Shown here one piece after another: positions 3,261 through 57,347 of a stretch of DNA of 58,084 nucleotides. The stretch comes from Candidatus Acidulodesulfobacterium ferriphilum (lineage in GTDB: Bacteria; SZUA-79; Acidulodesulfobacterales; Acidulodesulfobacteraceae). The notes beneath the pieces were generated by a model, which worked only from the letters and a program-made list of their open reading frames with translations, had not been told where the DNA came from and did not search any database. The translations under genes were made by a program, and so were the position numbers. Numbering within the stretch: position 1 is the stretch's first letter; every line of letters starts with the position of its first letter. The stretch covers positions 1-58,084 of the forward strand of contig SGBD01000007.1 of assembly GCA_004195035.1 (NCBI GenBank), read 5' to 3'.

Positions 3261-4004
3261 TTATTGAAGGCCGGCTATTTCTTTTAATTTATTTAAATCT
3301 TTTATAATAATTTTTTTTTTGCGAAAATCGATAATTCCCAAGTTTTTTAATTTATCCAGCACAATCGTTGTCCTTTGCCTCGAGGCTCCCGTCAGGTTTG
3401 AAATTTCTTCGTGGGTTAATTTAAATTTAATATTTATTTGGATACAGCGTTCTAATATGTTTATTGAAGATGGTACGAGAACTTCCTCGACCCCAAAATT
3501 ATTGGCAAGATAAATTAAAACCTCCGATATTCTGGCGTCCAAACTTTTATATGCCAGTGATGTAATTTTTGTTGAAATATATTTAAACCGCAAACCGATT
3601 AATTTCAAAACCCTATTGCCTATGACGGGATAAAGATTTAGTATTTTGTCGAAGTCGTCTTTTTTAAATTTGCAAACCTCCGCATCCGTCAAAGCAAAAG
3701 CACTTTCGGCATTTAAAAAATCAAAACTTGCTTCGCCGTCAAACACGTAATCGCCAAAATTCCCAAAAATTTCATCCGGCTTTAAAATCTCTACTATAAA
3801 TTCCTTTCCGCATTCCGTTGACAGCGTTATTTTAATATTGCCTTTTTTCAAAATATAAATATGGCTCGATTGAGATTCTCCTAAATATATAGTATCATTT
3901 TCCTTATAATATTCCATTTTCGATAAGTCGTCTATTAAACCGATATCCTTTTTTGAAAGATGTTCGAAAATTTTTAGATTTTGCAACAGCCAGAGTTTGC
4001 TCAT
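3261..4004 (-). CDS. Crp/Fnr-family transcriptional regulator
   Basis: 247 residues: a cyclic-nucleotide-binding-type beta-roll (about 15-130), a long dimer helix, and a C-terminal winged helix-turn-helix with FKLTHEEISNLTGASRQRTT as its turn and recognition helix. There is no N-terminal cysteine cluster, so it is not an oxygen-sensing FNR of the iron-sulfur type; the ligand (haem, NO, nucleotide or redox) cannot be told. The usual Ser-Arg-Glu of the recognition helix is Ser-Arg-Gln here. The gene converges on the pentahaem cytochrome with a 7-base gap. A local palindrome TTTAAT-N6-ATTAAA at 4009-4026, just before its start, could be for self-control. Confidence 0.88.
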   Translation of the reverse strand: MSKLWLLQNLKIFEHLSKKDIGLIDDLSKMEYYKENDTIYLGESQSSHIYILKKGNIKITLSTECGKEFIVEILKPDEIFGNFGDYVFDGEASFDFLNAESAFALTDAEVCKFKKDDFDKILNLYPVIGNRVLKLIGLRFKYISTKITSLAYKSLDARISEVLIYLANNFGVEEVLVPSSINILERCIQINIKFKLTHEEISNLTGASRQRTTIVLDKLKNLGIIDFRKKKIIIKDLNKLKEIAGLQ

Positions 4005-9243: not shown

Positions 9244-10552
9244 GGGCGGTATTCCATTAATCGGAGAGGTGCAGGTAAGCGGTTCCAAAAATGCCTCCCT
9301 TCCCATAATTGCTTCTTCCATAATGTTTGACGACACCTGCAACGAAATTTTTAATGTTCCTGACCTTGAAGATATCAAGACAATCAAAAAACTTTTGATA
9401 AGCCTCGGCGCCGAAATTAAAGAATCCGGCGAAACGGACAAGGTTATCATAAATACATCAAATATTAATAATTATGAAGCCCCTTACGACCTTGTCAAAA
9501 CGATGAGGGCATCCGTTCTGGTTTTAGGACCTCTTCTTGCAAAATATAAAAGAGCAAGGGTTTCTTTGCCCGGCGGCTGCGCGATTGGAGCAAGACCCAT
9601 AGATTTTCATTTAAATGCCCTTAAACTTTTGGGGGCTAATATCGTAGTGGATCACGGATATGTCGAAGCCTTTACGGAACAGCTCAGAGGCGCAACAATC
9701 AACTTCCCTATCCCGTCCGTTACCGGAACGGAAAATGTTGTTATGGCGGCATCGCTTGCGGAAGGGACGACTGTGATAAACAATGCCGCAAGAGAACCTG
9801 AGATTGACGACCTGATTCTTGCGTTAAATAACGGCGGAGCCGACATAAAAAGAATCGAGCCGTCCTTGATTGTCGTAAACGGGGTTAAAAAATTAAATAA
9901 ACTGAGCCACAGAGTTCTTCCCGACCGCATAGAAGCAGGAACATTTATGGTAGCTTCCGCCATAACAAGGGGGGATATTACCATAAAAGATATTAATGTA
10001 AGCCATCTTAAGTCCATTATCGATAAACTTTCGGAGGCCGGGGCAAAAATTGTTATAAATTCCCAGTCTTCTTTAAGGATAAAAGGGTCTAAGGTCATTA
10101 AAAGCGTCGATATTTCCACTGCCCCTTATCCCGATTTTCCTACCGATATGCAGGCTCAAATGATGGCATTAATGACAATTTCCAGCGGGCTTTGCGTTAT
10201 ATCCGAAAATGTATTCGAGAACAGATTTATGCATGTTGCCGAACTTATGCGCCTCGGTGCAAATGTAAAAGTCAGGAATAATTTTGCCATCGTAAAAGGC
10301 GTAAAAAGGCTTTCGGGGGCAGAAGTTATGGCCACGGATTTAAGGGCAAGCGCTTCGCTTGTTTTAGCAGGATTAGCCTCATTTGACGGTTATACGGCAG
10401 TTTCAAGAATTTACCATTTAGACAGAGGCTACGAAAAAATGGAAAAGAAATTGGCGAATCTTGGAGCCGTGATATCCAGAGTAAGCGAAGCCGAATCTTC
10501 CAATATTAACGAATTTGCAGAAAAAGATATAAATTATGGCAAGGGTATGTAA
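9224..10552 (+). CDS. murA: UDP-N-acetylglucosamine 1-carboxyvinyltransferase
   Basis: 442 residues, slightly longer than the usual 420. First committed step of peptidoglycan synthesis: transfers enolpyruvate from PEP to UDP-GlcNAc in the cytosol. The catalytic loop LPGGCAIGARPIDFHL carries the active cysteine (Cys 119), so a fosfomycin-sensitive form is expected. SGSKNASLPI (19-28) is the N-terminal substrate motif. The last 25 or so residues (SEAESSNINEFAEKDINY) are an extra acidic tail. It overlaps prmC by 20 bases and is followed by hisG after 14 bases, so prfA, prmC, murA and the his genes may share a transcript. Confidence 0.96.
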   Translation: MDKMIIEGGIPLIGEVQVSGSKNASLPIIASSIMFDDTCNEIFNVPDLEDIKTIKKLLISLGAEIKESGETDKVIINTSNINNYEAPYDLVKTMRASVLVLGPLLAKYKRARVSLPGGCAIGARPIDFHLNALKLLGANIVVDHGYVEAFTEQLRGATINFPIPSVTGTENVVMAASLAEGTTVINNAAREPEIDDLILALNNGGADIKRIEPSLIVVNGVKKLNKLSHRVLPDRIEAGTFMVASAITRGDITIKDINVSHLKSIIDKLSEAGAKIVINSQSSLRIKGSKVIKSVDISTAPYPDFPTDMQAQMMALMTISSGLCVISENVFENRFMHVAELMRLGANVKVRNNFAIVKGVKRLSGAEVMATDLRASASLVLAGLASFDGYTAVSRIYHLDRGYEKMEKKLANLGAVISRVSEAESSNINEFAEKDINYGKGM

Positions 10553-10566
10553 TAGTAAGGCATAAA

Positions 10567-11406
10567 ATGGCTAATACGCAAAAAAAGATCAAAAAACTTA
10601 AAATCGCAATTCCAAAGGGCAGAGTTTTAAAGGACAGCCTTGACCTTTTAAGGAAATCAGGATTTATTCAACATCCCGATTACGATTACGATTCAAGAAG
10701 ACTTATATTCGATTACGAAGACGACAGGGTCAGCCTTTTAATAGTCAAGCCGTGGGATGTTCCTACATTCGTAGAATACGGGGCTGCCGACGCCGGCATT
10801 TCGGGAAAGGATGTTTTACTCGAAAAACCGAAAAATGTATATGAACCTTTAGATTTAAGAATAGGCAGATGCAGGATTGTCGCTGCCGCCGGCGAGGATT
10901 TAATTAAACATGGTCTGCCTCCGCTTGCCGCTTCCGTGGTAGCAGATAACATTTTCACAGGGAATTCAATTATTAACGATGATATACATAATTGGGGCGA
11001 TATTCATATTACCAATATGAATGATAATGACAAAAAGTTATTTTTTTCAAAAATTAAAGATAATGTCAAAAAATTGTATCATTCAAAGGCAAATTTGCGG
11101 GTTGCGACAAAGTATGTTCGCATAGCAAGGGATTTCTTTAATAAAAAAGGCGTTCCAAATGTTCAAATAATAAAGCTTTACGGTAATGTCGAGCTTGCGC
11201 CCGTCTCGGGTCTTTGCGATTTTATCGTAGACCTTGTTTCGACCGGCGAAACACTGAGGCAAAATAATCTGATGCCGATTGAAGATGTTGCTGTTGTTAG
11301 CTCAAGGCTTATAGTAAACAGGGCAAGCCTTAAAATTAACCCCGGGGGGATTGCATCCCTGATAGATAATTTAAAGCGGCAGGTTGAAAAAAATGCGGAT
11401 ATTTGA
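10567..11406 (+). CDS. hisG: ATP phosphoribosyltransferase, short-type core with a large insertion
   Basis: 279 residues. First step of histidine synthesis: ATP plus PRPP to phosphoribosyl-ATP. The start (KLKIAIPKGRVLKDSLDLL) and the PRPP loop region (DFIVDLVSTGETLRQNNL) are those of HisG, and the protein ends like the short, HisZ-dependent form (about 210 residues) without the C-terminal regulatory ACT-like domain. The extra length is a roughly 60-residue insertion, about residues 108-172, rich in Asn, Asp and Lys, between RCRIVAAAG and LRVATKYVRIA. No hisZ is seen in this window. Whether the insertion replaces HisZ is unknown. Confidence 0.92.
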   Translation: MANTQKKIKKLKIAIPKGRVLKDSLDLLRKSGFIQHPDYDYDSRRLIFDYEDDRVSLLIVKPWDVPTFVEYGAADAGISGKDVLLEKPKNVYEPLDLRIGRCRIVAAAGEDLIKHGLPPLAASVVADNIFTGNSIINDDIHNWGDIHITNMNDNDKKLFFSKIKDNVKKLYHSKANLRVATKYVRIARDFFNKKGVPNVQIIKLYGNVELAPVSGLCDFIVDLVSTGETLRQNNLMPIEDVAVVSSRLIVNRASLKINPGGIASLIDNLKRQVEKNADI

Positions 11407-55621: not shown

Positions 55622-56452
55622 ATGTCAAGGGTTATATTTTTACGCCTATTAATAGGACTATTAGGCATTGTGTTTATAGTTCTCACATTTTGGTTAGGTG
55701 CATATTTTCATTTAAACGTTTCCACAAAAATAGTAATCGTATTGGCTTTTGCATTAGCCGCTATTCTTGCGGAAATTGTAATAGCCATCGATAATCTGGA
55801 AAAAAGATTAAAGGCGGCTTTCCCGTCGTTAGAACTTCCCCTTAAGGAACAAATCGCTATTAATGAAACTATAATGCTGTATAACAGGCTTAAAAAGAAA
55901 AAATCGGATATTTCGACGCGAATAGCTCTGGAAGATTTTGAAAAAATTCATATTCTCTTAAAACAGGCGGAAAAGGGTGGAGATTTTATTTTTCACGATA
56001 TTTACGCCGCTAAATTGATTGCATTGAAAGAATTAAAACCGGGACAGTCGTTTAAGGTTGTAAGCAATCTTATAGAACCGTTTTATTGGGGATACGGCAA
56101 GGATGTGACCGAACATACAAAACAAAATTACAGGCAGGCAAAAAGAGGCGTTCATATTGAACGAATATTTCTTTTAAAGGACGAGGATGATTTCTCCAAG
56201 ATAAAAGAAATTATGGATGAGCAGGCAAAAAATAGTATCGATGTATTTTACGTTTTTCAAAACGAATTAGATAAAATGTTGCCGTACGCCAGTTTTGCGA
56301 TATCCGAAGAATTGTCGATAGGGATAATTTCACATAGGGAAGATTTATTGGGAAAGATTACCGTTACATCTAATAACCAGATAATCACGGAACTTGCCTG
56401 GCAATTCGATATTATTAAAAAACAATCAAAGAAGTTCAACGCGGCAAAATAG
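55622..56452 (+). CDS. two-helix membrane protein with a cytosolic alpha-beta domain (uncharacterised)
   Basis: 276 residues. Two N-terminal membrane helices (about 6-26 and 35-57), a charged coiled linker, and a C-terminal alpha-beta domain of about 150 residues: KVVSNLIEPFYWGYGKDVTE, RGVHIERIFLLKDEDD and SIDVFYVFQNELDKMLPYAS. The pattern recalls phospholipase-D-like or TrmB-type effector-binding folds without the HKD catalytic motif, so a sensor role is possible. Not confidently assigned. It follows a 42-residue membrane protein. Confidence 0.6.
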   Translation: MSRVIFLRLLIGLLGIVFIVLTFWLGAYFHLNVSTKIVIVLAFALAAILAEIVIAIDNLEKRLKAAFPSLELPLKEQIAINETIMLYNRLKKKKSDISTRIALEDFEKIHILLKQAEKGGDFIFHDIYAAKLIALKELKPGQSFKVVSNLIEPFYWGYGKDVTEHTKQNYRQAKRGVHIERIFLLKDEDDFSKIKEIMDEQAKNSIDVFYVFQNELDKMLPYASFAISEELSIGIISHREDLLGKITVTSNNQIITELAWQFDIIKKQSKKFNAAK

Positions 56453-56544: not shown

Positions 56545-56691
56545 TTATTTCTTACCTTTCTTAACCGTGTGCTTTACCTTTATGGCAGCAAGGTTTAGTT
56601 CGAGGGTGGTCTCGCTACCGGTCGTTTCCAAGGCGCCATCGAGAATATCTCCCAGGACATCGGCCGCTTTTTCCATTTGCCTCATTTTCAT
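56545..56691 (-). CDS. small acidic-helical protein (possible)
   Basis: 48 residues from an ATG at 56691: MKMRQMEKAADVLGDILDGA then ETTLELNLAAIKVKHTVKKGKK. A 12-codon frame (MTVQELIEELKE, 56484-56522) follows on the same strand behind a run of eight G that could be its ribosome binding site. Only amphipathic helix pattern and context support it; no family is recognised. It lies left of the tRNA fragment, so outside the predicted element. Confidence 0.3.
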   Translation of the reverse strand: MKMRQMEKAADVLGDILDGALETTGSETTLELNLAAIKVKHTVKKGKK

Positions 56692-56767
56692 ACATAATTT
56701 TACATTTTAATTCATATCGTAGTCAAGAGGAAAATCTGCAGAACTGCTTATTTACTGCGGTTTTTAA

Positions 56768-56818
56768 TGGTGCGTCCAGCAGGATTCGAACCTGCGACCC
56801 ACAGCTTAGAAGGCTGTT
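56768..56818 (-). tRNA. 3' half of tRNA-Arg(UCU): probable attachment site of an integrated element
   Basis: On the minus strand this is the anticodon arm onward of tRNA-Arg (ACAGC-CTTCTAA-GCTGT), variable loop, T arm (GCAGGTTCGAATCCTGC) and TGGACGCACCA. The D arm and 5' acceptor strand are absent; the preceding bases do not match a tRNA. A 3' half tRNA is the usual scar at the far end of an element integrated by a tyrosine recombinase. A 9-base inverted repeat (GATAAGTTA, 56828-56836; TAACTTATC, 56847-56855) follows immediately, on the predicted element side. Confidence 0.75.
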
Positions 56819-56895
56819 ACCTTGATTGATAAGTTAATGAAATTACTAACTTATCGGCTATATATATTTTTTATGTGCGCTAAAATGTGATTATT

Positions 56896-57126
56896 TTATA
56901 GCAGACTTTGAAATTCATTTGATTCTAATCCCATGTCTTTAATTATTCCTGAGAGCGTTTTCGGTTTTATAATTTTTCCAGAATGAATTGGAACGACTAT
57001 CCGCCTTTTATCCGAATCGCTGTAATAAATGGCGTGGCTTCCTGATTTCCTGTCGAACTGAAAGCCTAATTTAACAGCCACCTTTATTATGTCCTTAGAA
57101 GTAATGCGAGGCAATTTGGGGCTCAA
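56896..57126 (-). CDS. hicA: HicA-type mRNA interferase toxin
   Basis: 76 residues. Double-stranded RNA-binding-like fold with the catalytic His in SGSHAIYYSD; the opening LPRITSKDIIKVAVKLGFQF is typical. HicA cuts mRNAs and is held back by HicB. It overlaps hicB by four bases (ATGA), with the antitoxin gene first, the reverse of the classic hicA-hicB order. It lies inside the predicted element. Confidence 0.9.
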   Translation of the reverse strand: MSPKLPRITSKDIIKVAVKLGFQFDRKSGSHAIYYSDSDKRRIVVPIHSGKIIKPKTLSGIIKDMGLESNEFQSLL

Positions 57127-57347
57127 ACCGCTACCCTCATAGATTTAATAGCAATGTCTTCAATTGGGATTTCTTCTTTATGCATCTTTAAACTTTCAAT
57201 ATAAAGCTTAATTGCATCTTTTATATTTTCTGATGCTTCATCGTAGTTGTCCCCGTATGTATGACATCCCGGAAGAGCCGGACAAAACGCATGAAATCCG
57301 CCGTCTTCTTCTCTTTCCAAAATAACCGTATAATTATATTCTTTCAT
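57123..57347 (-). CDS. hicB: HicB-type antitoxin
   Basis: 74 residues. The RNase H-like HicB fold is shown by YTVILEREEDGGFHAFCPAL and PGCHTYGDNYDEASENIKDA. No C-terminal DNA-binding helix is visible, so it is a short form and may not be an autorepressor itself. A strong promoter lies upstream at 57421-57449. First gene of a hicB-hicA pair. Confidence 0.9.
   Translation of the reverse strand: MKEYNYTVILEREEDGGFHAFCPALPGCHTYGDNYDEASENIKDAIKLYIESLKMHKEEIPIEDIAIKSMRVAV

Follow-up and report, generated by a model that had tools for sequence, protein, structure and literature searches.

The window analysed here, a stretch of 58,084 nucleotides, very probably includes the left boundary of a genomic island, inserted by a tyrosine integrase into a tRNA-Arg(UCU) gene within its 3' half. 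It is the entire contig C7 of a draft genome (G000; 7 contigs, 1.87 Mb) of Candidatus Acidulodesulfobacterium ferriphilum, from the order Acidulodesulfobacterales (described in PMC6776010). In the proposed mechanism, the attP site of the island would have carried a copy of the tRNA 3' half, and recombination would have restored a functional tRNA at the island's right end, beyond the contig; the 3' half present before insertion would have been displaced to the left end and have stayed there as a scar of 51 bases. The visible cargo would consist of hicBA and a gene for an HTH/S24-like regulator (Table 1). This boundary is well supported by comparison of genomes, and is not provable from the window's contig alone. 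It is the boundary of an ordinary tRNA-gene genomic island, whose mechanism is already textbook; its recognition fixes one boundary of a mobile island and explains the absence of an expected tRNA gene from the draft.

An earlier note on this DNA had described half of a tRNA-Arg(UCU) with its 3' end to the left, and this was confirmed: the sequence at 56768-56818 is a real tRNA-Arg(UCU) 3' fragment. It contains the anticodon arm, the variable region, the T arm, the 3' strand of the acceptor and the encoded CCA, with the CCA end leftward, and an Rfam RF00005 match was obtained at 56779-56836 on the minus strand (E 2e-4). Identity to the intact genes of relatives covers all 51 bases, the encoded CCA counted, and ends after GGCTGTT. 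The 5' half of the tRNA was absent from the scar, and no complete tRNA was called there by ARAGORN. The anticodon arm ACAGC-CTTCTAA-GCTGT (UCU), searched with zero mismatches, occurs at a single site in the whole 1.87-Mb genome, namely the scar. The fragment thus fits the description of Islander islands (PMC4383910), in which a displaced piece of the tRNA gene retains its 3' end.

Table 1. Features at the left end of the island, hairpin inserts in tRNA fragments of the family, and distances between intact tRNA genes and their fragments elsewhere in the window's own genome.
Feature	Position or distance	Strand	Remarks
Outside-left flank	56668..56767		directly 3' of intact tRNA-Arg(UCU) in G014 (97%), G022 (93%), G013 (92%)
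Displaced 3' fragment of tRNA-Arg(UCU), left attachment-site scar	56768..56818	-	51 bases including encoded CCA; Rfam 37.7 bits; equals 3' end of relatives' intact genes
Inner island end, conserved among copies (..ATTACTAA..), contains 9-base inverted repeat	56819..56869		alignment
Repeat TTTATGTGCGCTAAAATGTGATTA, at both island ends in G003; putative integrase arm-binding site	56870..56893	+	sequence comparison
hicA toxin gene	56896..57126	-	Pfam PF07927, E 1.9e-18
hicB-like antitoxin gene	57123..57347	-	Pfam PF15919, E 1.4e-10
HTH/S24-like regulator, C-terminal 193 codons, cut by contig end	57501..58082	-	full-length homologue in L088
Hairpin inserts of ~18-36 nt in tRNA-Arg(UCU) fragments	L087:6450-6545; L088:16322-16350; L091:2600-2645, 3830-3880; L094:5485-5520; L166:7293-7321; L167:6987-7036		
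tRNA-Gln(CTG), intact to fragment	7.8 kb		integrase 67-71% identical to that of G028 adjoins
tRNA-Pro(TGG), intact to fragment	13.4 kb		integrase 67-71% identical to that of G028 adjoins
tRNA-Val(GAC), intact to fragment	15.9 kb		integrase 67-71% identical to that of G028 adjoins
tRNA-Lys(CTT), intact to fragment	9.0 kb to nearest of three fragments		more distant integrase adjoins
tRNA-Lys(TTT), intact to fragment	4.4 kb		
tRNA-Thr(CGT), intact to fragment	5.3 kb		

Since the contig stops at 58084, 1.27 kb to the right of the scar, only the first 1.27 kb of the own island copy is present and the predicted partner is absent from the window. An intact tRNA-Arg(UCU) was not found in the own assembly by Rfam, pattern and DNA searches; 43 other tRNA genes were found with Rfam and patterns. 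In one of these searches 26 of 176 first-look candidates were left unscored, but the pattern and DNA searches would have revealed an intact tRNA-Arg(UCU). AGA is the most frequent Arg codon in the window's long frames (15.4 per 1000), and the genome should therefore have this gene. Based on these two results, the simplest reading is that an assembly gap very probably holds the remainder of the island, the intact tRNA-Arg(UCU) and its neighbours. A secretin gene adjoins tRNA-Arg(UCU) in the related genomes G002 and G003, and its matches in the own genome reached only 30-33%. Among the contig ends of the own assembly that were examined, none provides a link between the end of the window and an intact tRNA-Arg(UCU) or the integrase known from G028. 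The segment C4:1149-4196 was considered as a continuation of the window's end and rejected: it shares genes with the islands of the relatives G028 and G025, but is not collinear with the end of the window.

The first genes to the right of the scar code for a hicB-like antitoxin and a hicA toxin. They are adjacent, with the antitoxin gene upstream of the toxin gene as in HicBA toxin-antitoxin systems, and both Pfam matches (PF15919 and PF07927) are above cut-off. The pair differs from known HicBA systems in being island cargo that adjoins an attachment scar, and its activity is putative. The regulator gene that follows has a full homologue of 306 aa in G003 (L088:14638-15558), in which an HTH_3 domain was found; the S24 match of this homologue is weak, just under the Pfam cut-off (21.3 vs 23.3 bits). 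Comparison of the regulator with virus contigs gave only weak HTH-domain relatives. A search with PADLOC returned no defence match for hicBA or for a neighbouring gene at 55622-56452, which codes for a 276-aa predicted membrane protein and also had no Pfam match. This last gene is present in two copies in some relatives, often close to contig ends, and perhaps is therefore located on a repeat or mobile piece.

The anatomy of the whole island was observed in G003, a genome of the same genus. On its contig C133 (L088; 16.5 kb), the scar is followed by hicA, hicB, the complete HTH/S24-like gene (306 aa), further small genes, remnants of a tyrosine integrase gene and finally an intact tRNA-Arg(UCU) at 10538-10614; 5750 bp separate the CCA end of the scar from that of the intact gene. 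This is the only complete example of the tRNA-Arg(UCU) island, and in it the integrase gene adjoining the intact tRNA is frameshifted and truncated, its end missing. The earlier note had proposed an element to the right of the scar that carries hicBA and the S24-like gene, and these are the genes found before the intact tRNA in G003. It had also expected that extension to the right would lead to an integrase and an intact tRNA-Arg(UCU) bounding the island. This arrangement was seen end to end in G003, although with a broken integrase; for the window's own copy, the contig is too short.

Sites without the island were found as well. In G014, G022 and G013 the window's left flank follows an intact tRNA-Arg(UCU), with no scar or island there; the G014 contig starts approximately 120 bases from the tRNA, and more of the left side is visible only in G022 and G013. 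In G028, scar and hicBA match those of the window with 91% identity along 1.39 kb. A contig other than that of the scar, C15, carries an intact tRNA-Arg(UCU), and immediately 3' of this tRNA is an integrase gene with an open frame for 345 aa. This integrase belongs to the Phage_integrase family (PF00589, E 8.9e-30), and its sequence can be aligned to chains of XerA/XerC-like and HP1 integrases; among the matches listed, its best phage and plasmid relatives are only ~26-35% identical to it. In G010, ~0.2 kb separate a hicBA piece from the intact tRNA, with none of the other genes between them, so island content has been rearranged among relatives.

Islander islands (PMC4383910) consist of an intact tRNA gene and a 3' fragment in the same orientation, with a tyrosine integrase beside the intact gene and a length of 2-200 kb. 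An intact cognate tRNA with the fragment downstream, on the same replicon and in the same orientation, was seen on one contig in G003, whose 5750 bp fall within this length. The integrase inside the interval is broken in G003 and is represented by the 345-aa frame beside the intact tRNA in G028; the corresponding position of the own copy is off the contig. The window differs from the Islander islands in having the fragment end only, and the complete relative in its broken integrase.

For six other tRNA genes of the own genome, the intact copy is likewise accompanied by a 3' fragment, which measures 44-49 nt and starts near the anticodon arm (Table 1). With the G028 integrase as query, no integrase was found inside the tRNA-Lys(TTT) and tRNA-Thr(CGT) intervals. 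At least 7 tRNA genes in this 1.87-Mb genome thus have fragments left by islands, with several related integrases at different target tRNA genes, and such a collection would lend itself to comparing the ways in which integrases switch targets. Genomes with any island have a mean of 3 in Islander, with a maximum of 19 (PMC4383910); by this measure, the genome is crowded with tRNA-gene islands without being a record. A further stretch, on contig C4 (L161:14936-17427), contains genes for a type II restriction enzyme, a DNA methyltransferase-like protein and a TIR (ThsB-like) protein, and ends at a tRNA-Pro(CGG) that a 350-aa integrase adjoins.

The inner end of the island contains an exact 9-base inverted repeat in the window, GATAAGTTA (56828-56836) and TAACTTATC (56847-56855), which had been suggested earlier as the recombinase core site. 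This suggestion was not borne out. The repeat lies outside the 51-base identity block, within which the crossover should have taken place, and the alignment did not show it to be conserved as a repeat: its two arms pair exactly in the window and both G025 scars, one pair is broken in G028, and G003, G012 and G007 have lost it, so that it is broken in 4 of the 6 other aligned rows while the surrounding bases are conserved. When the 82-base inner end was shuffled by dinucleotides, 1.4% of the shuffles had an inverted repeat as good, as did 11 of the 708 equal tiles into which the window was divided. The repeat is thus probably not the core. A different motif, TTATGTGCGCTAAARTGTGATTA, lies ~50 bases inward of the scar; in G003, G025 and G028, a second copy with 2-3 changes is located in the stretch from the intact tRNA to the integrase. 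From this placement, it is a candidate arm site of the integrase. The same end motif was detected beside a tRNA-Arg(ACG) fragment and tRNA-Phe genes in G023 (L090:13900-14120), G028 (L179:6355-6580) and G017 (L180:8460-9060), suggesting that related islands target different tRNA genes.

The number of islands to the right of the scar deserves consideration. It is possible, if somewhat doubtful, that the scar was left by an older island, now decayed, in a stack of tandem islands, and that the right side holds several islands or debris instead of one. Stacks do occur: two scars precede the intact tRNA in G025, two scars are 1.1 kb apart in G028, and three are present at the own tRNA-Lys(CTT). Moreover, the flank on the left side of the scar resembles the integrase-side island ends at the own tRNA-Gln, Pro and Val genes, a hint that an older island, with the flank as its rim, perhaps lies there. 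In G003, however, the nearest complete case, a single island directly follows the scar and ends at the intact tRNA. A stack would affect how many islands there are and leave the kind of element as it is.

Very improbable is an origin of the tRNA half as a pseudogene, by ordinary partial duplication and without site-specific integration. The family does contain tRNA copies lacking an adjacent integrase, such as the tandem partial tRNA-Ser(GCT) copies of contig C3 (G000), but G003 has the intact partner, an integrase and matching end motifs, other relatives have empty sites, and the six sister islands have fragments of the same extent. As the window is a draft-genome contig whose end is close by, a chimeric assembly at the junction near 56.82 kb was also considered; this is refuted by the recurrence of the same junction in the separately assembled G028, G003, G025, G012 and G007, with the passage from scar to hicBA itself recurring in G028, G003, G012 and G007. 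A split or intron-interrupted gene whose halves are joined in RNA would fit the presence of only the 3' half and the lack of an intact gene in the assembly, but is hardly credible given a bacterial class A RNase P in the window, uninterrupted tRNA-Arg(UCU) genes in relatives, and scars that coexist with intact genes on one contig (L088, L091, L094, L166 and L170). Integration of an island into the tRNA-Arg(UCU) gene remains the preferred explanation.

A short hairpin was observed at one T-loop position, between GGAT and TCGAACC, in 6 of 18 tRNA-Arg(UCU) scars vs none of 25 intact genes (Fisher p 0.003; the genomes, being related, are not independent samples, and one scar among the 18, L097, is truncated where its contig ends and may be an intact gene). 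These observations come from the 30 genomes of the family, and a search at phylum level gave the same 30. The window's scar has no such hairpin. T-loop hairpins are also found in fragments of tRNA-Ser, tRNA-Arg(ACG) and others, and similar hairpin modules are dispersed outside tRNA genes. In folding comparisons, the two longer inserts did better than their shuffles (z -3.3 and -3.4), and the short insert was not clearly better than its shuffles (z -1.4); the plain T-arm alone scores z -4.1, and hence part of the folding signal of the inserts comes from the tRNA stem. No report of hairpins in tRNA T-loops was found in the literature of one open-access library. A speculative and rather unlikely reading is that displaced or duplicated fragments of several tRNA species are preferred targets of a hairpin module inserting at one exact T-loop point, which could disable the fragment as an attachment site or as RNA. 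The absence of the hairpin from intact genes is explained by selection against insertion into functional tRNA genes, which does not account for the use of a single position. Two further cases were seen in the window's own genome. On contig C3 (L038:950-1517, ~101.05-101.62 kb), four tandem hairpin-bearing copies of the tRNA-Ser(GCT) 3' end, mostly at 138-base spacing, adjoin the intact gene. On contig C1 (L198 and L237, ~308.5-308.9 kb), extra copies of tRNA-Ser(CGA) with hairpins in the T-loop and the anticodon arm lie beside the intact gene.
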